DNA from: Candidatus Methanoperedens sp. BLZ2 | Lineage (GTDB): Archaea > Halobacteriota > Methanosarcinia > Methanosarcinales > Methanoperedenaceae | Reading direction: 5' to 3' | DNA length: 64,000 bases | Assembly (NCBI RefSeq): GCF_002487355.1 | Contig: NZ_NTMG01000018.1 | Coordinates: forward strand, 1-64,000 | Part shown: positions 364 through 13,609 of the stretch, piece after piece | How the letters are laid out: each line of letters opens with the position of its first letter | Numbering within the stretch: position 1 is the stretch's first letter | The notes under the pieces: model-generated | The model's database searches: none | Told to the model about the DNA's origin: nothing | The model's input: only the letters and a program-made list of their open reading frames with translations | Made by a program: the position numbers and the translations under genes

Positions 364-666
364 ATGAGTATGAAATTTGTCGAACGCATAGAACAGGTGC
401 TTCCATGCCTGGTAGATCCATGGAAACTACGGATAATCGCTCATCTTAATAGCCCGCCTGATCTTAAAGAGCTTGCCCAGACCCTGGATGCGCGTTATTC
501 CGAGAGCCTGGGCGTGGTCCTTGTACGTCTTGGAAAGCGTGAGGTTAATTTTTTCGCAAGCGGAAAAGTTACTATAAGAGAGGTAAATGATATTGAAGAA
601 GGGAAAAAGCTTGTTAACTCAATACTTGCTATGGTTGCACAAAAGCAGCTGCTTAAAGAACAATAA
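364..666 (+). CDS. Small conserved-looking protein upstream of arsR, function unknown
   Basis: This 100-residue soluble protein has no signal peptide or membrane segment. The N-terminal half looks helical (residues 5-45). The second half reads like an alternating strand-helix domain, with VVLVRLGKREVNFFASGKV around residues 51-69 and then a helix rich in E and K. I do not recognise the family. It stands 33 bases before the ArsR-type regulator on the same strand and may be co-transcribed with it. Its only link to arsenic resistance is position. Codon use is ordinary for the window, which supports a real gene. Confidence 0.6.
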   Translation: MSMKFVERIEQVLPCLVDPWKLRIIAHLNSPPDLKELAQTLDARYSESLGVVLVRLGKREVNFFASGKVTIREVNDIEEGKKLVNSILAMVAQKQLLKEQ

Positions 667-699
667 GTTGCAATAAAAAGACATAAAATGCAGAGGATC

Positions 700-1071
700 A
701 TGAATAATAAATGCCTGTGTGCTTCAAAAACCGCAAAATTTTGCTGCCCCGGTGATAAAAAACTTCGTAAAGCCTGGCTTATGGACCTGGAAAAAGAACA
801 TGATCCATTAAGGCAGACCTCAAAAGAAATCGTCAGGAAATTAAAACTCCTCGCAAATTCCCACAGGATTGAGATTCTCCTGATGCTTGGGCAGCGAGAA
901 CATTGTATGGATGAGATGGCAAGAAAGTTAAAAGCCAAAAAGTCTGCTGTTTCTTATCATTTGATGATGTTAGAAAAAAATGGAATGATATGCAAAATAA
1001 AACGCTCCAGGTTTGCATTCTATTCACTTTCCCGGGGTGGAGAAAAAACGCTCTCTCTTTTTCGAAACTGA
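700..1071 (+). CDS. arsR: ArsR-family winged-helix transcriptional regulator
   Basis: The protein has 123 residues from the ATG at 700, which has a GAGG just upstream; an in-frame ATG at 688 would add four residues. A helix-turn-helix core sits in the second half, with the typical ArsR phrases LLANSHRIEILLML and SAVSYHLMMLEKNGMI. The N-terminus is cysteine-rich (CLC and CC within the first 15 residues), and one more Cys lies in EHCMDEMARKL, the position of the classical metal-binding helix. These cysteines may sense arsenite or another thiophilic metal. The arsenite pump gene follows directly, so it is the likely local repressor. Confidence 0.85.
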   Translation: MNNKCLCASKTAKFCCPGDKKLRKAWLMDLEKEHDPLRQTSKEIVRKLKLLANSHRIEILLMLGQREHCMDEMARKLKAKKSAVSYHLMMLEKNGMICKIKRSRFAFYSLSRGGEKTLSLFRN

Positions 1072-1134
1072 TCGTTCAAATTTTTTTGAAATTTTTATCA
1101 GGGTTTTATTACTGGAACGTCATTATAATATGCA

Positions 1135-2265
1135 ATGTCTCAAGTAAGGAATAGAATAGATAAAGGTAGCCTGGGCATAGTAAGTAAATTCCTGACTTTA
1201 TGGATTCTTCTTGCCATGGCAGCTGGCATAATTATAGGCGCTGCGTATCCGCAGGTGGCTAAAATATTAGATGCTGTCCGTATTGAACAGGTTTCCCTGC
1301 CAATTGCAATAGGTCTTATATGGATGATGTACCCGCCACTTGCGGGTGTGAAATACGAAGAACTCTATAAAATGAAGCAGCAGGGAAAGGCACTGAGTGT
1401 ATCCATTGTGCAGAACTGGGTAATAGGGCCTGTGCTGATGTTCGCTCTTGCCTGGATTTTTCTTCCTGACCTTCCTGAATACAGGATAGGTTTGATCATA
1501 ATCGGTCTTGCGCGATGCATCGCCATGGTTCTTGTCTGGAACCAGCTGGCAGGTGGAGATAATGAATTATGCGCTGTCCTTGTGGCTGTGAACTCAATAT
1601 TCCAGGTGGCGCTTTATTCGGTTCTGGCGTACTTATTTGTAACTGTATTATCAGCATGGATAGGCGGAACCGGAGCAGGCGCTGTAGTGGACATTTCCAT
1701 ATGGGAAGTCGCCAAAGCTGTATTCATCTATCTGGGGATTCCTTTTATTGCAGGTATAATAACACGGTCTGTCCTTGTGAAAAAGAGAGGAAAAGACTGG
1801 TATGATAATGTATTTATGAAAAAGCTTGGTCCCACTGCTTTGATCGGATTGCTTTTTACAATTATAGTTATGTTCTCCTTAAAGGGAGAGTACATTCTAA
1901 AACTCCCCATGGACGTGTTCAGGATAGCAGTCCCGCTGCTTATTTATTTCATCCTGATGTTTAGCATTTCATTTTTCATGTCGTACAGGCTGGGCTTTTC
2001 TTATGACAAATCCACAACCCTGGCATTCACAGCAGCAAGCAACAATTTTGAACTTGCAATTGCAGTAGCTGTTGCGGTGTTCGGGATAGATTCAGGCGTG
2101 GCTTTTGCAGCCGTGGTGGGACCGCTGATTGAAGTGCCTGTTATGCTGGGACTGGTACATGTAGCAAGACGGGTAAGCGTCATGTGGTTTGATCAAAAAG
2201 GTCTTTCGATAAATAGAAAAATTACTGCTGATGTTACAGGAAACTTGAATATAAAGGAGGAATAA
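1135..2265 (+). CDS. acr3: Arsenite efflux permease, ACR3 family
   Basis: This 376-residue polytopic membrane protein has about ten hydrophobic segments. Family signatures are [14 protein letters not shown] near residue 65, [14 protein letters not shown] with the conserved cysteine at 128, and the late [15 protein letters not shown] helix with its conserved glutamate. ACR3 exports As(III) across the cytoplasmic membrane. Its length fits the family. The gene is followed by arsD and an ATPase gene arsA, so efflux may be ATP-assisted, although ArsA partnership is best documented for ArsB pumps. It ends on TAA three bases before the AhpD-like remnant, within an evident operon. Confidence 0.93.
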
Positions 2266-2268
2266 AAT

Positions 2269-2421
2269 TTGTCATGGTTCAACGAGAAAACACCGGATGT
2301 TGCGAAAGCATTTTCTGAGTTGAGAAATTCTGTATATAAAGAAGGTGCGCTTGATCTTCGCACAAAAGAACTCATATCTGTGACGGCTTCTGTGCTTATG
2401 AGATGCGAGCGATGTATATGA
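2269..2421 (+). pseudogene. Truncated AhpD-like carboxymuconolactone decarboxylase remnant
   Basis: From a TTG at 2269 a 50-residue frame resembles the N-terminus of AhpD/CMD proteins: FNEKTPDVAKAFSELR, LRTKELISVTASVLM, then RCERCI with the redox CxxC pair. A TGA at 2419-2421 stops it exactly after the CxxC, where the family normally continues with a histidine-containing helix. The codons after the stop still read KNHGEKG, which weakly resembles that helix, before the arsD start takes over. AhpD-like genes are common in ars operons. I read this as a gene cut by a nonsense change and a 3' deletion. Confidence 0.65.
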
Positions 2422-2446
2422 AAAAATCATGGAGAAAAAGGAATAG

Positions 2447-2761
2447 ATGGCAAAGATAAATTTGGTTATATACGAAGGTGCGATGTGCTGCTCCACTGGC
2501 GTCTGCGGTCCGGAGCCGAATAAGGAACTGATAGAGCTTAACGAGGCATTAAAAAGATTGCAAAAAGAATTCAAAGAATTGAATGCAGTAAGGGCAAGCA
2601 TATCTTTTAACCTGGACATGTTCCTTAAGAATAGTGAAATTTCTCAACTGATACAAGTTAATGGACCGGGTGTACTCCCCATTACCACTATCAACGGCAA
2701 AATTGTTGCCAAACAAAAATATTTAACATACGCTGAACTGAAAAAAGAAATTGAAAAATAG
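2447..2761 (+). CDS. arsD: ArsD arsenic metallochaperone
   Basis: This 104-residue thioredoxin-fold protein matches the length of ArsD. The N-terminus shows the vicinal pair C14-C15 and C20 in GAMCCSTGVCGP, the arsenite-binding cysteines of the family. VLPITTINGKIV near residue 75 is also typical. ArsD hands As(III) to the ArsA ATPase, and the arsA start is only 3 bases downstream, which agrees. The C-terminal CC pairs of the longer enterobacterial ArsD are absent, as in many short ArsD proteins. Confidence 0.93.
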   Translation: MAKINLVIYEGAMCCSTGVCGPEPNKELIELNEALKRLQKEFKELNAVRASISFNLDMFLKNSEISQLIQVNGPGVLPITTINGKIVAKQKYLTYAELKKEIEK

Positions 2762-2764
2762 CAA

Positions 2765-4642
2765 ATGGACAATAATGTGACAAATCAATTAATAGAGCCA
2801 CAACAAAAAGGAGAAACAAAATTCGTTTTTTTCAGCGGTAAGGGCGGAGTTGGGAAAAGCACGATGAGCTGCACTACTGCTGTGTGGCTTGCAAAAAAAG
2901 GTTATAAAACTTTACTCGTTACCACAGACCCGGCTCCAAATCTCTCTGATATATTTACACAGGAAATCGGGCATAAAATTACTTCCATTAATAATATTGA
3001 GAACCTGTTCGCAATCGAGATAAACCCCGATACAGCTTCCGAAGAATATAGAGAAAGAATTATTGCCCCTATGAGAAAGATTCTGGATGAAAAGAATATA
3101 CAGGTAATAAATGAGCAGATGAACAGCCCCTGCGTTGAGGAAGTGGCAGCATTTGATAAATTCATAGAATTTATGGATGATCCCCAATATGATGTTGTCA
3201 TATTTGATACCGCACCGACCGGACATACGATCAGACTCTTAGAACTTCCAGGCGGCTGGAGCACAACATTAGAAAAAAGTGCCTCTACCTGCATAGGACC
3301 CGGCGCATCTTTGCAGAATGCAAAATCCAGATATGAAAAAGCAATATCGTATCTTCAGGATGATGCTAAAACTTCCTTCATCTTTGTTCTGAAACCTGAG
3401 AGCTCCTCGCTTCTTGAAACAAAAAGAAGTTCTGATGAATTATCTAAATTGGGAATTAAAATAAATATCCTGATAATTAATGGAATACTGCCAGAAGAGG
3501 CGTGTACAGATGAATTTTTCAAAAAGAAGAAAGTAGATGAGCAAAAAATAGTGAAAAAAATCAATGAAACATTTCCTGCCATGCAGAAATTATTTTACCA
3601 GCTCAGAGATTCTGAGGTTTCTGGTCTGGAATTGTTAGAAGCAGCAGGGAAATTTTTATATGAAGCTAAAATAGAGGATGTTGAAATAGAAATAGAAACA
3701 GAATTAGAATTATCAAATAAGAAAGGGAAAATCCAGGAATCCGGGTTGATAACTGATCAAAGTGAACTGTATGATTTACTCACCCCTTTGAATGGAACCA
3801 GATATATATTTTTCACAGGCAAAGGGGGTGTGGGTAAAAGCACGATTGCCTGTGCAACTTCCCTTTATCTGGCAGAAAAAGGTTTTAGAACTTTGATACT
3901 CACAACAGATCCAGCATCTCATTTACAGGATATTTTCGGGCAGACGGTTGAGCATGAACCGACGAGAATTAGCGGTGTGGATAATTTATATGCAGCAAGA
4001 ATAGACCAGAAGAAAGCACTGGAGGAGTATAAAAAACGAATTCTGGATATAGTTAAAGATAATGACGAGGAAACAAAGAAATCTGTGGAAGAAGACCTGA
4101 ACTCTCCCTGCGCGCAAGAAATGGCTGCATTTGAACGATTTATAAATTATTTTGAATTGAATGGATATGATATAATAATTTTTGACACAGCACCGACAGG
4201 GCACACCCTGCGATTATTAGAACTTCCTTCTGACTGGAAAGGATTTATCGACCTGGGGGATTTAACAAAGAAATCATCTGATGAAACTGAAACTAAGAAT
4301 AAGTATGCCAATGTCATAGAAACAATGAAAAACAAAGAAAAAAGCACGTTTGTTTTTGTGATGTATCCCGAATACACACCCATAATAGAAGCATGGAGAG
4401 CCTCTGAAGAATTAAAAAGGCAGGTTAAAATAGAAACCGCCCTGGTAGCGGTTAATTACCTGCTTCCGCAGGATTTTGGGAAGAATAAGTTCTTCAGCAA
4501 TAGAAGAAAACAGCAAGAGAAGTATTTATCTGAAATAAAGCAGAGATTCAAAACCCCGATGCTTATAGTTCCTCTTCTTGAACGTGAGCCTGAAGGTCTC
4601 GATAAATTAAGAGAGCTTGGAAGAACCGTCTTTAGTGGATAG
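2765..4642 (+). CDS. arsA: ArsA arsenical pump-driving ATPase, two-domain form
   Basis: This 625-residue soluble ATPase consists of two homologous halves. Each half has a deviant Walker A motif: FFSGKGGVGKST near residue 22 and FFTGKGGVGKST near 345. Each has a NSPC segment followed by FDTAPTGHT. The NSPC cysteines and the cysteine in ASTCIGPG match the As(III)-binding positions of bacterial ArsA. ArsA couples ATP hydrolysis to arsenite extrusion through the membrane pump, here presumably the ACR3 protein upstream. The linker around residues 315-335 is rich in acidic residues and lysine. The gene ends 43 bases from the converging mtrH, with a shared palindrome between them. Confidence 0.94.
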   Translation: MDNNVTNQLIEPQQKGETKFVFFSGKGGVGKSTMSCTTAVWLAKKGYKTLLVTTDPAPNLSDIFTQEIGHKITSINNIENLFAIEINPDTASEEYRERIIAPMRKILDEKNIQVINEQMNSPCVEEVAAFDKFIEFMDDPQYDVVIFDTAPTGHTIRLLELPGGWSTTLEKSASTCIGPGASLQNAKSRYEKAISYLQDDAKTSFIFVLKPESSSLLETKRSSDELSKLGIKINILIINGILPEEACTDEFFKKKKVDEQKIVKKINETFPAMQKLFYQLRDSEVSGLELLEAAGKFLYEAKIEDVEIEIETELELSNKKGKIQESGLITDQSELYDLLTPLNGTRYIFFTGKGGVGKSTIACATSLYLAEKGFRTLILTTDPASHLQDIFGQTVEHEPTRISGVDNLYAARIDQKKALEEYKKRILDIVKDNDEETKKSVEEDLNSPCAQEMAAFERFINYFELNGYDIIIFDTAPTGHTLRLLELPSDWKGFIDLGDLTKKSSDETETKNKYANVIETMKNKEKSTFVFVMYPEYTPIIEAWRASEELKRQVKIETALVAVNYLLPQDFGKNKFFSNRRKQQEKYLSEIKQRFKTPMLIVPLLEREPEGLDKLRELGRTVFSG

Positions 4643-4670: not shown

Positions 4671-4696
4671 AAATTGGTGTAAATTTACACCAATTT
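4671..4696. terminator. Perfect 26-bp palindrome between converging arsA and mtrH
   Basis: Bases 4671-4683 are followed immediately by their exact reverse complement, 4684-4696 (arm aaattggtgtaaa). The palindrome spans the mtrH stop codon and has a T-rich run on the plus side. It lies where two convergent operons meet and could act as a bidirectional terminator or mRNA 3' end. Function is inferred. Confidence 0.5.
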
Positions 4697-5635
4697 CTTT
4701 ATCGGATGGGATTCAGCCAGAACACTGAGGCCAAGGTCTTTTGCGGTTTCACCGAGCATAATATCTACCATTGCTACTGCCGGGAAAACCTTCTTTACGT
4801 TTTCAATCGGACCATACAGCAGGAAATTGGCGCCCATTATCTGTGCGACAAGGTTTGTGCCTATATCCACTGGCGGCCATGATTCGGTCTTTGCATCCGG
4901 ATCTGTTTTCTTGTATTTTTTCATCCAGTCCCATGCTGAAGCCATGTTGTGGAAGCCCCCGCCTGCGGGTAAGCCTAATTTACCTTTTATGGCAAGAACC
5001 GACCTGATAGTAGCTCCGGAACCTGCTCCGAGAGGTGTTGCTGCTACATCCACCAGGGGTCTTGTAATTCCGACTTCTTTTGCTACATCAAGCATACCTT
5101 TTGTCTGTCCTGTTCCTCCTTTCTCAAGGATCTCAAGTTTTCCTTCAACGCTGGGGTTTGTGGCATTGAATGCAAGAACAATTGCGGATGTCATCTTGCT
5201 CTCCTTTAGGGCCTTGATCTCTTCAGCACCGATACTTGCATTTATGGAATTGTGTATGGCACGTTTCTCAACACCGATCTCCTTTGCGTACTTTGCTGCA
5301 ACAGCCCTGACATGTCCGTCAGAGGAGTCAACAAGGAATGGTACATCATCGCATATATTTACGAACCAGTCAATATATTTCTTGATAGCTTCTGGCGTTT
5401 CGCCAACGAGCTGATTGAAATATGGATTTCCTGTCGTATCTCCCATCACTTCCTGTGTATTCCACAGTTTCTCGGCTGCAGCTTTGTCAAATACACCATG
5501 GTCTTCATCAGTCACGATCTTATGTTTTAAATAAAACATCGTACTGACAAGTACTGTTGGGTATTCTCCAGGCTGTCCGCCCACTTTTGTTTTACCGAAC
5601 TCAAATACTTCTTGTTTCTTATCAAATCTGAACAT
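4685..5635 (-). CDS. mtrH: Tetrahydromethanopterin S-methyltransferase subunit H
   Basis: MtrH, 316 residues, is the soluble subunit that moves the methyl group from methyl-tetrahydromethanopterin to the corrinoid on MtrA. It belongs to the TIM-barrel pterin-binding methyltransferases. Recognisable segments include KVGGQPGEYPTVLVSTMFY near the start and VLAFNATNPSVEGKLEILE in the middle. It is the last gene of the operon, 13 bases after mtrG. Length and composition are normal for the family. The C-terminal codons are embedded in the palindrome shared with the ars operon end. Confidence 0.96.
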   Translation of the reverse strand: MFRFDKKQEVFEFGKTKVGGQPGEYPTVLVSTMFYLKHKIVTDEDHGVFDKAAAEKLWNTQEVMGDTTGNPYFNQLVGETPEAIKKYIDWFVNICDDVPFLVDSSDGHVRAVAAKYAKEIGVEKRAIHNSINASIGAEEIKALKESKMTSAIVLAFNATNPSVEGKLEILEKGGTGQTKGMLDVAKEVGITRPLVDVAATPLGAGSGATIRSVLAIKGKLGLPAGGGFHNMASAWDWMKKYKKTDPDAKTESWPPVDIGTNLVAQIMGANFLLYGPIENVKKVFPAVAMVDIMLGETAKDLGLSVLAESHPIKKLV

Positions 5636-5648
5636 CTTGGCACCTCAC

Positions 5649-5918
5649 TTATTCTAATCCTAAAGCTTTCTTTACTGCATTGATCAATACCGGGTTTGAA
5701 AGCGCTGGTGAAAGAAGCAGTAACAAATATACCACCACAATCATGAGCGATGCGCAAATCCCGTACAGTATTCCTATGTCTCTTCCTATTTTTTTTCCAT
5801 ATCTCTGGTGTATCTCAGAATTTGTGAACTCGATCTTTTCATCTATTTCATCTAATTTCTGGAGGATATTTTTGTAGTCTTCCGGATCTACGATAACTAT
5901 TGGGACTTTTTCTGCCAT
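5649..5918 (-). CDS. mtrG: Tetrahydromethanopterin S-methyltransferase subunit G
   Basis: MtrG is a small subunit of the membrane Mtr complex, here 89 residues. The family segment IDEKIEFTNSEIHQRYGKK is followed by GRDIGILYG and one C-terminal transmembrane helix near residues 53-71. It continues about 15 residues past the helix, slightly longer than most MtrG proteins. It lies between mtrF and mtrH in the usual order. Assignment rests on motif and position. Confidence 0.92.
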   Translation of the reverse strand: MAEKVPIVIVDPEDYKNILQKLDEIDEKIEFTNSEIHQRYGKKIGRDIGILYGICASLMIVVVYLLLLLSPALSNPVLINAVKKALGLE

Positions 5919-5922
5919 TTTT

Positions 5923-6147
5923 TCACCCCATCAAATAAGGAGGAACAAGTACTGCTATCATAACGATCACGAAACCGATCGAGATACCGATCACGCCTGT
6001 TGCGCCGACACCTGATTCAAGTTTCTGGTTTCGTGAAATAAGCTGGCCCCTGTATCTGATATCCTCTACCAGCGATTCTATGGCAACCATTGAAGGATTT
6101 AATACCATTGGTACGCCTTTTCCATATTCGTATTCTTTCTCTGCCAT
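5923..6147 (-). CDS. mtrF: Tetrahydromethanopterin S-methyltransferase subunit F
   Basis: MtrF, 74 residues from the ATG at 6147. A GGAGGTG at about 6153-6160 selects this start rather than the ATG three codons upstream, which would overlap mtrA. The sequence holds [23 protein letters not shown] and then [12 protein letters not shown], both characteristic, and one C-terminal transmembrane helix. MtrF anchors in the membrane beside MtrA and may help couple methyl transfer to sodium pumping. It follows mtrA by one base and precedes mtrG by four. Confidence 0.92.
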
Positions 6148-6148
6148 T

Positions 6149-6874
6149 TTAAACACCTCCGCCGAATATCAGTATTCCAAGAATGGTCAATCCCACGACA
6201 AGACCTATCATCATACCTTCTATCTTTCCGGCATAGATACCTGACATTAATTTATTCATATTCCCGATATCGATCGTCTGCTGTTGAACGCCTTTTATCC
6301 TTGCCTGGATGGACGCAAGCTCGGCTGACATGGGCTTGACACCGCCTAACTCTTCTGCCTCTTTTGCCTCGCCGACCTGGATTATCATAGGTTCGCCATC
6401 AAAGGCTCCCGGGTCTTTTGCTGCCAGTTCTTTTATCTTTGCAATGATGGCATTTTCATCTTCAGTGCCCATCATTTCAACTATCTGGACCTGTGCCTGG
6501 AATCTCTTTACGGCATCATCAGGCAGGTTTTCAATGTAAGGGATAGCGCCTGTTGAACCTACGATCCTGTTGTCTTTGATCCCATTCTTGTGAAGCATTA
6601 TTATTGCTTCACCTGATATGTGACCCTTTACTTCAGCGCCTGTAACGAGAAGAAAGCGTATGTTGGGGTTGGAAATGATGTTCGCAACTATTTTCTCGAT
6701 ACCCAGGTTTTCAGTTTTGTGCGGGCCGGTGATACATGCGCCAGCTGCTATTTGAGGTGCGCCTTTAAGATGCGAACCGCATGTGGTTACTGCAACACAA
6801 TTTTCCGGGTTTCCCGCATCATATTCACCTTTAACAACGGGCCAGCCTGCTGCAGGTTTTACTTTATTAGCCAT
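6149..6874 (-). CDS. mtrA: Tetrahydromethanopterin S-methyltransferase subunit A (corrinoid protein)
   Basis: MtrA, 241 residues, carries the corrinoid that receives the methyl group before it passes to coenzyme M. The N-terminal cytoplasmic domain has the conserved stretch [20 protein letters not shown], and the cobalt-ligand histidine is likely H85 in [11 protein letters not shown] single C-terminal transmembrane helix (about 217-238) anchors it. Length equals the full-length, membrane-bound form. It lies between mtrB and mtrF and is separated from mtrB by no bases. Confidence 0.96.
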
Positions 6875-7186
6875 TTACATCCCTCCAAGCTTCGTCACAG
6901 TGAGCAATAAAAAGGACACGATAAATCCTATTATTGCACCATAGAATACATTTGTTACTATTCCTGCATTATAGGAAGCACTCTCTCTTCCAGGGAACAT
7001 GCTCAATAATTTTGCCCTGGGATCAAGCTGGTTCATCATATCAGTGACGATATTATCCAGTTCATCCAGTTGTGTTTTCACAGCATCGAGTGAATATTCC
7101 ACAACATCATCCTTTTCTTCTGCGATCACACCTGTCGTGGGATCCAGGATCAGGTGCATTTCAGGAACAACTCTTATATGGCTCAT
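6875..7186 (-). CDS. mtrB: Tetrahydromethanopterin S-methyltransferase subunit B
   Basis: MtrB, 103 residues, has a soluble N-terminal part (IRVVPEMHLILDPTTGVI near the start) and one C-terminal transmembrane helix with FYGAIIGFIVSFLLL. It is a small anchoring subunit of the sodium-pumping Mtr complex. Its stop abuts the mtrA start and its own start lies two bases after mtrC, so translation is probably coupled. Confidence 0.94.
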   Translation of the reverse strand: MSHIRVVPEMHLILDPTTGVIAEEKDDVVEYSLDAVKTQLDELDNIVTDMMNQLDPRAKLLSMFPGRESASYNAGIVTNVFYGAIIGFIVSFLLLTVTKLGGM

Positions 7187-7188
7187 TT

Positions 7189-8016
7189 TTATGCCTCCGT
7201 CTTGGGGATCAATCCGGTTCCGACTACTGATGAAGCATCATGATAAACTTCATCCCAGAATTTCTTGTAAAATATTATCCAGAGACCTATTCCAAGGACC
7301 AGGGTTATAACTCCTGATGTACCGAGTGTCATGGTTGCAGCAATTCCGATTATTGCCATTGTTATGGCTCCTGTTGAGCCGGCAAGATACAGAAGCCTCT
7401 TTTGCTTTTCATCAGGACCGAGACATGCATTGAAAGGATGCAGCATTGCAACAGCCCCGACCCAGAAGACTGCAAGTATTATACCATTATCGAAAACCAG
7501 TGTAACAATATTTGCAAACTCAAAATTTCCTGCTACTGCCGCGGAAAAGCCGATAATGATTATCGTTCCGGAAGCAGCGATTTCAGTCATACAGCGGATC
7601 ATCACAGGTATCTTCATTTTTATGACGTTCTGTGCAAACCAGCCAACTATGAATCCGAGAATGGATGCTGTTACCAGAGCTACTATCGGACCTGCAAGGA
7701 CAATAGTTTTTACTATTGCGAGGCCGAACATGGCAGCGATTATTCCCATTCCCATCGCAATTTGTCCGATGGATGGGACACCTGTTCCCAGGCCATATTT
7801 TGCAACGCGCCTTACTGCGTCTGCGCCCCACACAACAGCGCAAATGCCTCCAAGCGCTCCGAATGTGGGGGCTATGGTTCTAAGGACGATCGCGGGATTA
7901 CCACCGATTTTATCTCCAGCAAATGGAAGTAAATAGGTGAGGTATATTCCAAGAAGCCCTCCGATTATCCCGATAAGCAGTAATTGATTGGGTGATCTTT
8001 CTTTGACATCGCTCAT
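7189..8016 (-). CDS. mtrC: Tetrahydromethanopterin S-methyltransferase subunit C
   Basis: MtrC is an integral membrane subunit of 275 residues from the ATG at 8016. That start overlaps the mtrD stop as ATGA; an upstream in-frame ATG at 8058 would extend into mtrD and is unlikely. Several hydrophobic helices are seen, with phrases such as FGALGGICAVVWGADAVRR and HPFNACLGPDEKQKRLLYLA. With MtrD and MtrE it forms the membrane part that couples exergonic methyl transfer to sodium export. It sits in the standard E-D-C-B-A-F-G-H order. Confidence 0.95.
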   Translation of the reverse strand: MSDVKERSPNQLLLIGIIGGLLGIYLTYLLPFAGDKIGGNPAIVLRTIAPTFGALGGICAVVWGADAVRRVAKYGLGTGVPSIGQIAMGMGIIAAMFGLAIVKTIVLAGPIVALVTASILGFIVGWFAQNVIKMKIPVMIRCMTEIAASGTIIIIGFSAAVAGNFEFANIVTLVFDNGIILAVFWVGAVAMLHPFNACLGPDEKQKRLLYLAGSTGAITMAIIGIAATMTLGTSGVITLVLGIGLWIIFYKKFWDEVYHDASSVVGTGLIPKTEA

Positions 8017-8741
8017 GGTGAGATTCCTCCTGCGATCAATACTGCAAGAAGTCCGCAAAGAATGCTTACGAAAAAGCTTGTGAAAATGTCTTTGCCGACC
8101 ACACGCCTGAACTTGGGATCATGAACTCCTTCAATTGTTCCGCCCACGCCGTATGATGGGACAACAGCATTAACATAGAAAACGCCCAGGGTAAATACGC
8201 CCGCAACTGCGGCGGCGCTTGTTGCACTGATCAATTGTCCGTATATTCCAACCAGGACATAATAGATAAGAGCCCCTCCAATACCTCCAAGCGCAGCGCC
8301 CACAATACCGCTAACAAAGCAGATAGTAGGAAGGCCCTGTCCCTGTGTTCCTTTGGAAATATAGGTATCCTGCCTGTCTCCAGTAATCGGGTCTTTTTTG
8401 ACCTGTGCTGAGGCAAATGGCACTGCCACGCCATAAGCATATATCAAACCGCCAGAGAACATGGTGCTTGCAAGCATTACCATGGAGCCAACTGCTCCCG
8501 CAGCCAGTATTAAAGCCATTGGCGCGTTTTCAACATTTGTATACATATAAGCCGCTGTTATAAGTCCTACAAGACCTGACCCTGCCGCAAGTTCCACAGT
8601 CCCGGTTCCGATACCTGTTGCCTGTGCCATTGCCGCAGGAGCGCCGCCTACTGGAATGAAGTGAACTGCAAGACAAATAAGAGTCCCGCTCAAGCCGATC
8701 AATAAAATATTGGTTAATAATGTTGGATCAATCGCTACCAT
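8013..8741 (-). CDS. mtrD: Tetrahydromethanopterin S-methyltransferase subunit D
   Basis: MtrD, 242 residues, is a polytopic membrane protein rich in Gly and Ala. Family features include HFIPVGGAPAAMAQATGIGT near residue 26 and a C-terminal GVGGTIEGVHDPKFRR. It is one of the three large membrane subunits of the sodium-translocating methyltransferase. It overlaps the mtrE stop by one base and the mtrC start by four, consistent with tight translational coupling. Confidence 0.95.
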   Translation of the reverse strand: MVAIDPTLLTNILLIGLSGTLICLAVHFIPVGGAPAAMAQATGIGTGTVELAAGSGLVGLITAAYMYTNVENAPMALILAAGAVGSMVMLASTMFSGGLIYAYGVAVPFASAQVKKDPITGDRQDTYISKGTQGQGLPTICFVSGIVGAALGGIGGALIYYVLVGIYGQLISATSAAAVAGVFTLGVFYVNAVVPSYGVGGTIEGVHDPKFRRVVGKDIFTSFFVSILCGLLAVLIAGGISP

Positions 8742-9643
8742 TATGCTTTAGCCTCCTTTTCATTTTTTTCTTCCTTATATGGGCCATAAGCATGCCTGAC
8801 GTTGAGTTCTATCAGCCTGTTCATTATTATGAGAACTACCACAATTAATACACCCACACCTATCGCTTTCCAGGTATACCCGAAAATGGTTGTGGGCCAG
8901 CTTGAAAAGAACACAGTAAGACCAAGAGCTATGCCTGTTGCAGGTCCTCCGAACTTGGCGCAGAACCAGACATTATCTATGCTGTTCCTTAAGCCAGATT
9001 CGGCTTTCCTCACAATGCGTCCTGAGAGCGCAGTGTTAAGACCGCACCCGAATTCGCGGTTCTGGAATTCACGTTCTCCGCCGTAATGCACATCACCAAC
9101 AGATGAGCCGATAGCGCCCACGGAAATTCCCCATATCAATGCAAGGAATGGAATAGTGAAAGGATATCCGAGTATTTCAAATTGGATGTATGCAATAGCT
9201 ACAAGGCAGAAATTCATAATGAAATTATGCCCGATGATCGAAGGTGTCGTATATCTCATAATATCCATATACAAAGGCTGCTTGAACCTTGTCTGGCTCG
9301 CAACCCTTCCTGCATATGAGGTTGTAGCAAAGATGCCCAATATGATTGCGCCGAAAAACGCGCCGATTACTATTGCAGTCAATGGATAGAACTTCTGGCT
9401 CAAAAGTACGGTTGTGACCGTACCGCCGATCACGGCCGACATGCCGTTGCTGATTGGTTCACCTGAAATCGCTTTGTTAAATATTCTGTGCAAAAACCCC
9501 ATCTGGGGAGCTAATTGTACCTGGGAGTTCGGATTGCTCTGGGAGCCTACATCGGATTCAAGGTCCTCAAGGCATCCCGCTATAGTAGCAAGAGCTCCCA
9601 TGAGTGCCAATATAGCCATGCTCATGGTTAAATCTAATACCAT
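8741..9643 (-). CDS. mtrE: Tetrahydromethanopterin S-methyltransferase subunit E
   Basis: MtrE, 300 residues, is the first gene of the mtr operon. It is a membrane subunit with about six to seven helices. Typical segments are LATIAGCLEDLESDVGSQSN near the N-terminus and GSSVGDVHYGGEREFQNREF in the middle. The start codon at 9643 is preceded by a strong GGAGGA at 9653-9658 and, further up, a TATA-like element. The C-terminus is charged (KEEKNEKEAKA). All eight Mtr subunits are present and look intact. Confidence 0.96.
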   Translation of the reverse strand: MVLDLTMSMAILALMGALATIAGCLEDLESDVGSQSNPNSQVQLAPQMGFLHRIFNKAISGEPISNGMSAVIGGTVTTVLLSQKFYPLTAIVIGAFFGAIILGIFATTSYAGRVASQTRFKQPLYMDIMRYTTPSIIGHNFIMNFCLVAIAYIQFEILGYPFTIPFLALIWGISVGAIGSSVGDVHYGGEREFQNREFGCGLNTALSGRIVRKAESGLRNSIDNVWFCAKFGGPATGIALGLTVFFSSWPTTIFGYTWKAIGVGVLIVVVLIIMNRLIELNVRHAYGPYKEEKNEKEAKA

Positions 9644-9683
9644 TTTATCATATCCTCCTATATTGAATTCAAATCACCATAAA

Positions 9684-9700
9684 AAACTATATATTAGTTT
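9684..9700 (-). promoter_or_regulatory. Likely archaeal promoter (TATA box) of the mtr operon
   Basis: On the minus strand the sequence AACTAATATATAG lies roughly 45-55 bases before the mtrE ATG. This position predicts a short leader of about 25 bases that carries the GGAGGA ribosome binding site. It is the only strong TATA-like element directly upstream of mtrE. Assignment is by pattern and position only. Confidence 0.5.
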
Positions 9701-9799
9701 TATCGGAGTACCTTATTATACATTATAAATGTTTCGAATATTGTCTGGCTGTCAGCACATTGCGGCATGGCCAGGATCAAATATGCATCAAAAAGCATC

Positions 9800-10407
9800 T
9801 TAAATGAGAGGCTTTGGCTGTTTATGCTCAGGAAGCACAGGCAATTGTGCAGTGCTTGTAAGAATCGGTGAATCAATTTCCTTTGCTCTCTCAATGATCA
9901 GCTCTTTACCCTTCTGTGTCAATGCAAACATGGGAACAGAAGTGCCAGCCTGGAGGACAGGACGTATAAGGTGGCGCACCATATGTGAAGCGCAGCTTGT
10001 GATAATATCCATTTTCGCAATAATCTCTTGCGTTTCCCTGAACTGGATACCTGTGAGGTGAGCCCCGATAAGGATCAGGTTAATATTCTTTTCTTTCTCT
10101 ATCAAACGAAGTTTTCCCGCTGCAGGATTATCAGTGATCACGGTTCCAGCACCATCGCATCTTCTTTCCGGAGTGAACATCCTCAGTTCGCGTATCCTGT
10201 ATTCCATATTCCTTTTTGCTTCCAGGGAGGTGAGTCTTGAAACATTTGAAACCTTACTGAAAACAGCTTTGAGGTAGAAATATGCTGGCTTACAGGAGGA
10301 AGCACTGACCTGAATTCCCAGCCCGCATGTCCGCATGTGTTATCAGCAAGTTCAGAAGCGATTTTTTTAAGAATTTGAAGATCCAGCGAATTCAGCTTTC
10401 GTGCCAT
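9800..10407 (-). pseudogene. Decayed gene resembling methanogenesis marker protein 8
   Basis: Two overlapping frames (10183-10407 and 9800-10336) together look like one damaged gene. The first begins MARKLNSLDLQILKKIA. The second contains NMEYRIRELRMFTPER, CDGAGTVITDNP, ILIGAHLTGI, CASHMVRHLI, SVPMFALTQKGKEL and the tail LPEHKQPKPLI. From memory these phrases match methanogenesis marker protein 8 (DUF2099), but the family is about 280 residues and the parts are joined with material missing: roughly 25-30 residues between MFTPER and CDGAGTV, and about 50-60 between ITDNP and AAGKLRLIEK. A frameshift separates the N-terminal piece. The C-terminal third looks well kept, which suggests fairly recent decay. 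Confidence 0.6.
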
Positions 10408-10431: not shown

Positions 10432-10572
10432 ATGTCGGAATTGAAAAAGAACGGATATGACCAGCACAGGCTGATACTTACAGGATATCTTCGGGCTTTG
10501 CATGAAACGTCCAAATTTTATATTGCACAATTTAAAAAAATTGCACATGAAAATCTATTTAAACTATTATGA
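10432..10572 (+). pseudogene. Fragment copied from the winged-helix gene at 13.0 kb
   Basis: Bases 10437-10505 are identical over 69 bp to 13111-13179, inside the winged-helix gene. An ATG at 10432 keeps the same reading frame (MSELKKNGYDQHRLI and so on) and the frame runs 46 codons to a TGA, but after ALHET the residues no longer match. It is therefore a piece of that gene's helix-turn-helix joined to unrelated AT-rich sequence. It probably makes no functional protein, though a short DNA-binding peptide cannot be ruled out. It lies directly before the promoter region of the REC-PAS-kinase gene. Confidence 0.75.
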
Positions 10573-10619: not shown

Positions 10620-12032
10620 ATGAATAAACAGGTTCGTGTATTGGTTATTGAAGACTCCAGATTTGACGCACGGATATTAATTGGGGAACTTGAGCATGGT
10701 GGTTACGAACCTGATTATGAACTTGTGGACACTCCCGAAGGTATGCGAACTGCAATTACGGCAAAATCATGGGATATCGTTATATCTGATTATGTAATGC
10801 CTGATTTTTCAGGATTGGATGCGATCAGGATCTTACAGGAAAGCGGTCTTGACATACCGATAATAATTGTATCAGGAAATATCGGTGAAGATACTGCTGT
10901 ACAGGCCATGAAAGCCGGAGCGCATGACTATCTCATAAAAGGCAATCTTGCAAGGCTCATACCTGCTATCGAGAGAGAGCTCAGCGAGGCACAAGAGCGG
11001 CGAAAACGAAAGAAAGCAGAAGCTGAACTGAAAAGTACTAAAGAAAAACTTGAATCGTTTATTAACAACACTTCTGATGCCATCATAATACTGGATCTGG
11101 AAGAAAAAATCCTCCAGGTAAACACTGGTTTTGAAAAGATATATGGATGGACTGCCGCGGAAGCAGTGGGGATCAAATTGCCCACAATACCCGTAAATAT
11201 AATTCCAGAAACCGAGAAGCTCCTGGCGAAAGTAAAGTCCGGCAATGTCATTACGGCTCATGAAACTATAAGGAGGCGAAAAGACGGAAGTGTTTTTGAT
11301 GTCAGCGTGACAATCTCACCCATAAAGGATGCCGAAGGTAAAGTTGTTGCTTTTGCTGGAATATCACGGGATATAACTGAACGGAAGAGATCGGAAGAAC
11401 TGATAAGATCTTCTCTTTTAGAGAAAGAAACCCTTCTCAGGGAAATACATCATCGGGTCAAGAATAATATGCAGGTTATTTCCAGTTTACTCAGGCTACA
11501 ATCAAGATATGCCAAAGACAAGGACGATATTGAGTTTTTCAAAGATAGCCAGAACCGGATCTCTTCCATGGCTCTGGTTCACGAGAAACTTTACCAGTCC
11601 GGAAATTTTACAAAAATTGATTTTAGTGTTTATGCAAAAGACCTGATAAAGAGTATATTCCACTCTTATGGGACTATTTCAAGCCGTATCACACCGACTA
11701 TTAAAGTTGAAAATGTTTCACTTGGGATTGATTCAGCCATCCCCTGCGGTTTGATCATCAATGAGCTTGTCACCAATTCATTGAAACACGCATTTCCTGA
11801 TGGTAAAAAAGGTGATATCAAGATTTTTATGCGGCGAACAGGTGAAAATGAATATAGTTTAGAAGTATGCGATAATGGGATAGGCATAGCGCAAGGAATA
11901 GATTTCGATAACAGTAACAGTCTGGGTTTGCATCTGGTTAAAATATTGGCACAGAAACAGTTAAATGGAGATATCAATCTGAATCGTGATCATGGGACCG
12001 AAATCAAAATTAATTTTAAAGGAGCTAAATAA
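10620..12032 (+). CDS. Hybrid sensor kinase: REC-PAS-HisKA_2-HATPase
   Basis: This 470-residue soluble protein begins with a receiver domain (residues 5-122; acidic E11-D12, phospho-acceptor D57 in VISDYVMPD, KG at 107-108). A helical linker leads to a PAS domain (about 145-257, ending in GISRDITERKR). A HisKA_2 dimerisation motif follows, LREIHHRVKNNMQVISSLLR, with H277/H278, and then a HATPase with LIINELVTNSLKHAF and DNGIGI. Such receiver-first kinases are common in methanogenic archaea. There is no membrane segment, so the input is cytoplasmic, either a phosphate from another kinase or a PAS ligand. The stop overlaps the next gene as TAATG, so the pair is co-translated. Confidence 0.9.
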   Translation: MNKQVRVLVIEDSRFDARILIGELEHGGYEPDYELVDTPEGMRTAITAKSWDIVISDYVMPDFSGLDAIRILQESGLDIPIIIVSGNIGEDTAVQAMKAGAHDYLIKGNLARLIPAIERELSEAQERRKRKKAEAELKSTKEKLESFINNTSDAIIILDLEEKILQVNTGFEKIYGWTAAEAVGIKLPTIPVNIIPETEKLLAKVKSGNVITAHETIRRRKDGSVFDVSVTISPIKDAEGKVVAFAGISRDITERKRSEELIRSSLLEKETLLREIHHRVKNNMQVISSLLRLQSRYAKDKDDIEFFKDSQNRISSMALVHEKLYQSGNFTKIDFSVYAKDLIKSIFHSYGTISSRITPTIKVENVSLGIDSAIPCGLIINELVTNSLKHAFPDGKKGDIKIFMRRTGENEYSLEVCDNGIGIAQGIDFDNSNSLGLHLVKILAQKQLNGDINLNRDHGTEIKINFKGAK

Positions 12033-12832
12033 TGTCTAAAAAACAGATACTCATTGTCGAAGATGAAAGTATCGTTGCTGAAGACCTGAGGGAAACCTTG
12101 ATCAGTTTGGGATATGCAGTTCCTTCGGTTGAATCTTCAGGGGAAAAAGCTATCGAGAAAATAGAAGGAATGCGCCCTGACGTTGTGCTTATGGATATTA
12201 TGTTGCAGGGTGCAATGGACGGCATTGAGACGGCAAAAGAGGTACATGACCGGTTCGATATTCCTATCCTATATATTACTTCATATTCTGATGAGCATAT
12301 CCTTGAAAGAGCAAAAATAACAGAACCATACTGTTATATAATAAAACCCTTCAGGGAAAGAGAGCTTCATATCAATATCGAGATAGCAATCTATAAACAC
12401 CAGATGGAAAATAAATTAAAAGAAAGCGAACACTGGTTGTCATCAACGATCAAAAGCCTCGGGGAGGCTGTAATATCAACAGATAAAGACGGTTTGATAA
12501 AGACCATGAACCCATTTGCAGAGGCTATGACTGGTTGGAAATTTGATGAAGCATTTGCAAAACCCATTTCTACTGTTTTTAATATAATCAGTGAAAAACC
12601 CGATATAAAAGTGGAAAACCCGGTAACCAGGGCTATCCGGGAAGGAATTTACTACGGACTTGCAGAGCACACTGTATTGATATCAAAAGAGGGAATGAAA
12701 GTACCTGTTGATGTTATTGGATCCCTTATAAAAGACAATTTTGGAAATATTATGGGTACTGTAATGATCTTTGAGGATATTATTGAGCGTAAACGTCTGG
12801 AGGAAAGAATCAAAAAAACAAATATCGAATAA
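12032..12832 (+). CDS. Response regulator with REC and PAS domains
   Basis: This protein has 266 residues. The receiver domain (residues 4-122) has E10-D11, phospho-acceptor D55 in VVLMDIMLQG, and KPF near residue 110. A coiled linker and a PAS domain (about 130-255) follow, with PFAEAMTGWK and a C-terminal IFEDIIERKRLEERI. There is no DNA-binding or kinase output domain, so it probably works as a relay partner. The start shares bases with the stop of the upstream hybrid kinase, which makes that kinase the obvious phosphodonor. It may dock onto another kinase through the PAS domain. Confidence 0.88.
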   Translation: MSKKQILIVEDESIVAEDLRETLISLGYAVPSVESSGEKAIEKIEGMRPDVVLMDIMLQGAMDGIETAKEVHDRFDIPILYITSYSDEHILERAKITEPYCYIIKPFRERELHINIEIAIYKHQMENKLKESEHWLSSTIKSLGEAVISTDKDGLIKTMNPFAEAMTGWKFDEAFAKPISTVFNIISEKPDIKVENPVTRAIREGIYYGLAEHTVLISKEGMKVPVDVIGSLIKDNFGNIMGTVMIFEDIIERKRLEERIKKTNIE

Positions 12833-12956: not shown

Positions 12957-13039
12957 AGGTAGGCTTTTTTGTTTTCTCTATGATAATGATGTTTAACACC
13001 CAAACATTTATCAGGTTTGTTATCAAATCTAATTTGTTC

Positions 13040-13609
13040 ATGTCGGAATATTACAATATCCTTACAAAAGTGATGGCAAATAAGCAGATGTCCATCAGCA
13101 GTATAGCAAGGGAATTGAAAAAGAACGGATATGACCAGCACAGGCTGATACTTACAGGATATCTTCGGGCTTTGCATGAGACCGGTTACATGGAAGAAAT
13201 TGACATACCGCCATCAAAAGTATATGTTTTAAAATCCGGTATGAAGCGTGATGTTTATAGTATTGTGAAAGAGCATTTGAAAGATATCGACATTTCAGAA
13301 AGGTTAGGAATTGCAGTATTTATCCTTACCTCACTTTTCCACCGCCCGTCTTTTAAATACGAACTTGAATTGCTGGGTATTGAGGCGCGAAAGACCGAAA
13401 CCATAAAAGAGTCAAAAGATGCCCTTCTCAACGAACACCGCGTGGCTGTAACACGCATAAAAATTCCAGTAGATGATCCGGCATTTGAAATGAACGGGGA
13501 CACAACTGAGATCCAGCTTCTTGGGAACAAAGTCCTGATAGATATTATTAAAGATCTGATCGACCTTGATGGATTGAAAGCAAAGTCCCAGCAGACAAAA
13601 CTTGCATAA
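13040..13609 (+). CDS. Winged-helix protein of unknown function
   Basis: The protein has 189 residues from the ATG at 13040; an in-frame ATG at 12980 would add 20 residues without clear similarity. Residues 5-60 look like a winged helix (SISSIARELKKNGYD, then YLRALHETGYMEEIDI). The remainder is mixed helix and strand with no motif I recognise. It has no membrane segment. It stands between the two signalling gene groups and could be their DNA-binding output, which is inference from position. A 69-bp piece of it is repeated at 10437-10505. Confidence 0.65.
   Translation: MSEYYNILTKVMANKQMSISSIARELKKNGYDQHRLILTGYLRALHETGYMEEIDIPPSKVYVLKSGMKRDVYSIVKEHLKDIDISERLGIAVFILTSLFHRPSFKYELELLGIEARKTETIKESKDALLNEHRVAVTRIKIPVDDPAFEMNGDTTEIQLLGNKVLIDIIKDLIDLDGLKAKSQQTKLA

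Follow-up and report, generated by a model that had tools for sequence, protein, structure and literature searches.

The closest counterparts of the locus analysed here are the B-type genes for methanogenesis marker 8 (DUF2099, TIGR03275) in two congeners, C4 of G003 (record METP1) and C73 of G020 (record LFW-24). In both genomes the marker 8 gene and a small gene upstream of it, termed S1 here, lie on one strand, and a gene for a 209-residue regulator-like protein, a histidine kinase and a response regulator lie on the other; in G003 the marker 8 gene stands upstream of mtrE, and in G020 mtrE is on another contig. S1 encodes a protein of 112 residues and terminates at the very start of marker 8 (an intact example is L123:5251-5586), and neither Pfam nor NCBIfam contained a match to it. 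The earlier note on this DNA, which surmised that the host might be an anaerobic methane oxidiser, is supported in this respect, as the congener loci carry the name Candidatus Methanoperedens, a genus of ANME, the anaerobic methane oxidisers.

The role of marker 8 is little illuminated by published work. A search of one literature library by the marker 8 names, DUF2099 and TIGR03275 returned no function in the portions of the papers available, and none is given in the available sections of PMC9635834, PMC3226654 and PMC12774963. A paper on the MCR activation complex names Mmp7, Mmp17, Mmp3 and DUF2098, and the part of its text at hand contains neither 'mmp8' nor 'marker 8' (PMC12176620). Pseudogenes of Methanoperedens did not appear among the titles and opening lines of abstracts in the literature searched. 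Here we show that in one genome of the genus the B-type marker 8 gene has been reduced to a remnant beside an intact mtr operon.

Anatomy of the remnant

The window, that is, the whole 64,000-nucleotide stretch analysed (contig C67), belongs to a genome of 3.74 Mb in 85 contigs with a completeness of 99.99%. The earlier note had described a decayed marker 8-like gene, and this was borne out by profile search. The 178-residue frame at 10336-9800(-) matched PF09872 (DUF2099) with 101.7 bits against a cut-off of 25, covering profile positions 176-257 of 257, a score far above chance that confirms the region as the relic of a marker 8 (DUF2099/TIGR03275) gene. The same frame scored 104.7 bits with TIGR03275, which lies under the full-length cut-off of 232.7, as is expected because the frame is a fragment. 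In the tree the remnant groups within the B clade with the genes of G003 and G020 (support 98/94), on a branch of 0.22 compared with 0.035-0.088 for these two relatives. It shares with them not only the clade but also the sequence of the retained segments, the C-terminal part having 86-89% DNA identity with its counterparts in G003, G020 and G021, in agreement with the good preservation reported for this part. The remnant also resembles its relatives in having S1 as the upstream partner and, as in G003, in its position upstream of mtrE. It had been placed behind the mtr operon; it lies, however, on the minus strand 5' of mtrE, and is thus ahead of the operon (Table 1).

Table 1. Features of the window around the remnant, and the second marker 8 relic of the same genome
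Feature	Position	Strand	Remarks
mtr operon, mtrE to mtrH	4685..9643	minus	Open frames; mtrE and mtrH by Pfam, the others (presumably mtrD, C, B, A, F and G, named by order within the operon) by position
mtrH	5635-4685	minus	Confirmed by Pfam
mtrE	9643-8741	minus	PF04206
Block directly 5' of mtrE	9641..9735	minus	About 90% identity in G003, G020 and G021; untouched by the decay
Whole remnant	9800..10407	minus	Start of S1 joined, out of frame, to a B-type marker 8 gene that has internal deletions
Marker 8 (DUF2099) part	9800..10266	minus	Keeps residues 33-66, 98-110 and 177-end (numbering of the intact protein); frame open
198-bp deletion junction	10114..10125	minus	In frame; residues 111-176 lost
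90-bp deletion junction	10160..10162	minus	In frame; residues 68-97 lost
293-bp deletion junction	10266..10267	minus	No shared bases at the join relative to G020
S1 part	10267..10407	minus	First 47 codons; in relatives, S1 immediately precedes B-type marker 8
72-bp leftover of the 209-residue gene	10437..10508	plus	100% to G020, 97% to G003, 99% to 13111-13182
Histidine kinase	10620..12032	plus	Receiver and PAS domains; adjoins the decayed block here and its intact counterpart in G020 and G003
Response regulator	12032..12832	plus	PAS domain
209-residue regulator-like gene, intact copy	12980..13609	plus	Now beyond the response regulator; holds the second 72-bp copy, 13111-13182
E-type marker 8 relic	G000:C28:92789-92950 (L067)		Precedes a PF02579 (FeMo-co-like) gene; C-terminal end only

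Measured against the intact G020 locus, the remnant differs from the B-type orthologues in that S1 is cut after 47 codons, most of the upstream region is gone and 31 of the 64 near-invariant positions of the family (a hand count) have been deleted. The largest of the three deletions within the remnant joins codon 47 of S1 to codon 32 of marker 8, out of frame. A frameshift near the N-terminus had been proposed, and a shift of frame is indeed present; its cause, however, is not a point frameshift but this 293-bp deletion, which fuses the two genes. The two missing internal segments were described correctly, and both are in frame. A further loss of ~193 bp relative to G020 lies in front of S1, such that upstream of its start only ~27 bp still align to that genome. 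Beyond S1, the 72-bp leftover and the segment inside the displaced copy of the 209-residue gene form a direct repeat, marking the old site and the new one; together with the deletions, these features indicate that ~2 kb of the original arrangement, from mtrE to the kinase, is affected by the losses. The 209-residue gene, tentatively labelled 'HTH', has no Pfam match.

It might be contended that the assembler, or a mixture of strains, created these deletions and that the real gene is intact, since the assembly is a draft in 85 contigs and several deletions are clustered in ~2 kb. The joins, however, share next to no bases with both parent sequences, so few that a k-mer assembler could not have made them without spanning reads. 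The flanks, moreover, are intact and close to those of relatives (the kinase is 97% identical to that of G020 and mtrE 93% to that of G003), and the 72-bp leftover, combined with the displaced intact copy of the 209-residue gene, fits a real rearrangement. An artefact is thus very unlikely. When the region was compared with all 31 genomes of the genus set, which includes this one, alignments outside this genome broke at the joins; the decay is not shared, and the lesion is carried by one genome only. At the other end of the mtr operon, the window contains at 364-4642 a cluster (regulators, a transporter, an ArsD-like protein and a doubled ArsA-like protein) that ends beside mtrH and, judged from its reading frames, resembles one for arsenic resistance.

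State and age of the gene

Relative to the intact orthologues, disabling lesions are present. The 154 retained codons of marker 8 nevertheless contain neither a stop nor a frameshift, and in comparison with the three closest relatives that are intact their dN/dS is 0.12-0.15, as against 0.12-0.20 between those relatives. Unique changes (synonymous:non-synonymous) number 4:6 in the window and 6:7, 5:3 and 5:3 in the three intact genes; among those of the window is the replacement of G60 by arginine. Relaxed selection on the retained codons thus appears not to be measurable, and a dN/dS like that of intact genes suggests that most of the retained divergence predates the death of the gene, which accordingly looks recent.

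The open frame, the two in-frame internal deletions, the unrelaxed dN/dS and the restriction of the lesion to a single genome are the points that speak against a pseudogene. All but the last would also be accommodated by a shortened but working protein, in which the 178-residue frame, starting at the ATG at 10336, makes use of the conserved C-terminal region of marker 8. Several observations argue against such a product. Its native upstream region has been cut to ~27 bp and its start lies out of frame inside S1; the deletions remove the predicted core elements H78-87, E93-98, H128-137, H152-161 and E166-171, as well as the near-invariant positions counted above; and G60, which is invariant in 83/83 rows of the family, is an arginine in the remnant. 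Of the three cysteines that are invariant in the family (C31, C98 and C219 of the intact B protein; 83/83 rows), the remnant keeps C98 and C219, and C31 disappeared with the 293-bp deletion. The structure predicted for the truncated product has a pLDDT of 44.8 and a pTM of 0.33, whereas the intact protein reaches 67.1 and 0.70, and the product is accordingly predicted to be unfolded or disordered. That two of two deletions should be in frame is expected by chance in one of nine cases. We therefore regard a shortened working protein as extremely unlikely.

The region is, very probably, a recently formed and non-functional pseudogene of the B-type marker 8 paralogue that has left mtr untouched and other paralogues in place. 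The anatomy of the remnant, its clade, the deletions and the remaining copies are established directly from the DNA. With respect to the order of events, the ancestor would have had mtrE preceded by marker 8(B) and S1 on the same strand, followed on the opposite strand by the 209-residue gene, the kinase and the response regulator. The present lineage has a second, intact copy of the 209-residue gene beyond the response regulator, and several deletions would have eroded the segment from mtr to the kinase, removing most of the old copy of that gene, the region upstream of S1 and most of S1. The same erosion would have taken three pieces out of marker 8. The remnant is presumed to be non-functional; the mtr operon keeps the block upstream of it. 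This block is matched in 24/30 other genomes of the genus (rows counted by eye) and is likely the mtr promoter region, in which case mtr retains its own promoter. Any need for marker 8 is probably covered by the three intact paralogues, one of A type and a C/D tandem pair.

B-type loss within a multi-copy family

A DUF2099 match was found in 58/60 genomes searched, including that of the window, and the control genome of Methanosarcina acetivorans likewise has the family. A tree of 88 rows resolves clades A, B and E, the tandem C/D pair and a divergent group X; two family-f5 genomes, each with a single gene, branch at the base of B. The genome of the window has five matches: an intact A-type gene on C23, two intact tandem genes of C/D type on C59, the remnant and a short remnant on C28. 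The suggestion of a second intact copy elsewhere therefore holds in so far as intact marker 8 genes exist on C23 and C59 (two on the latter), but these are paralogues of other clades and not the B-type gene. A relocated orthologue, which had likewise been envisaged, was rejected, as the tree places all three intact copies outside the B clade and a search of the 85 contigs returned no further B-type copy.

An intact B orthologue could still reside in an assembly gap or on an unbinned contig. The number of contigs would allow this, as would the variable location of the gene: among the 25 other genomes in which mtrE and a B gene were both found, B is on the mtrE contig in 13 and is not on that contig in 12, so that B may move. 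Against a hidden copy stand the near-total completeness of the genome and the outcome of the search, which found only A, C, D, the present remnant and that on C28; its existence is distinctly unlikely. Where B does occur on the mtrE contig it is always upstream, on the same strand and 234 to 12,396 bp away, within 2.3 kb in nine of the 13 genomes. One of the mtrE genes of the genus, G010:C190:989-1704 (L126), was itself found split in two, interrupted by a stop and lacking a stretch, and represents either a broken gene or an assembly error.

The decay had also been taken as a possible sign of changed methane metabolism, a reading that finds no support here. An intact B gene is present in 29/30 other genomes of the genus (the copy of G010 is cut by a contig edge), the exception being G023, which is 74% complete, and both the mtr operon and McrA are intact in the genome of the window. 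From these comparisons, loss of B is thus not an ANME trait. Given that a single species has lost a gene kept elsewhere in the genus, the loss could instead be adaptive and signal an altered methane metabolism in that species. The intact mtr operon and McrA again argue against this explanation, as do the paralogues that are present and the fact that an E-type paralogue has decayed as well while A, C and D stay, which fits turnover of the family. Adaptive loss is therefore highly unlikely. At the DNA level, the E-type relic on C28 shows 91% identity to the E locus that G021 retains intact. It is a second cut-down marker 8 paralogue in the genome of the window, of which the C-terminal end survives; unlike the B remnant, it belongs to another clade and precedes a PF02579 gene. 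That two of the five marker 8 genes are relics is consistent with turnover in a multi-copy family rather than with changed methane metabolism, and the decay itself represents ordinary pseudogene formation within such a family. A gene of the PF02579 cluster adjoins the E-type gene in 6/6 E loci examined, Pfam having been run on the C28 copy only. In G019:C57 (L083) the E-type marker 8 was matched as two overlapping pieces that lack profile positions 114-136, and is likely broken.

S1 and the intact B-type protein

S1 recurs as the partner of B across the genus. Of the 29 other genomes with B, a full S1 lies upstream of it in 18 and a partial one in G028, while in 10 S1 was not found, G010 with its contig edge among them; the 3' end of S1 remains in G021 and, weakly, in G019 (E 0.025). 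These counts indicate that S1 has been lost more often than B. Relatives of S1 occur in 123/149 genomes of the order. A second, distant S1-like protein is encoded at G000:C15:93089-93403 (L166) and in L181, beside a gene that is presumably the archaeal metK.

The structure of the intact B-type protein was modelled on the gene at L167:5341-6186 (the C73 gene of G020), with a mean pLDDT of 67. Compared with known structures, the twelve best rows had Z scores of 11.7-8.8 and an rmsd of 3.3-4.0 over 137-154 residues, the next row having a Z score of 6.0. From their titles we take these twelve rows to be members of the FrhB family, F420-reducing subunits of the Frh, HCAR, Fsr and Fwd/CODH-associated types. 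With Foldseek, FrhB-family proteins also rank first, but weakly (E 0.017-0.06), and hhalign of the marker 8 and FrhB profiles gave a score of 41.2, a probability of 60 and P of 8.5e-5, compared with scores of at most 23.2 and P of 0.028 or worse for 14 control families. The identity between intact marker 8 and the FrhB family is only 12-20% in the structural alignments. The part of marker 8 that aligns to FrhB begins at SET..T.L..GLID, the segment that the 90-bp deletion has removed from the remnant. A search by sequence for a solved structure of A-type marker 8 found none. Thus, intact marker 8 points to the FrhB (F420/flavin) family, although, with a model of middling confidence, this should be considered a lead rather than proof. 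A bolder proposal, which is possible but rather doubtful, is that marker 8 is a divergent F420/flavin protein of FrhB type, that the B type, paired with S1 and often found 5' of mtrE, serves the Mtr step and that the present species is a natural knockout of B.

The B-type marker 8, kept by nearly all other Methanoperedens genomes, can disappear from a genome that retains mtr and mcr, and the presence or absence of marker genes must consequently be read paralogue by paralogue. The predicted FrhB-like fold, S1 as a recurrent partner of B and the FeMo-co-like neighbour of E, in turn, make the function of marker 8 more testable.
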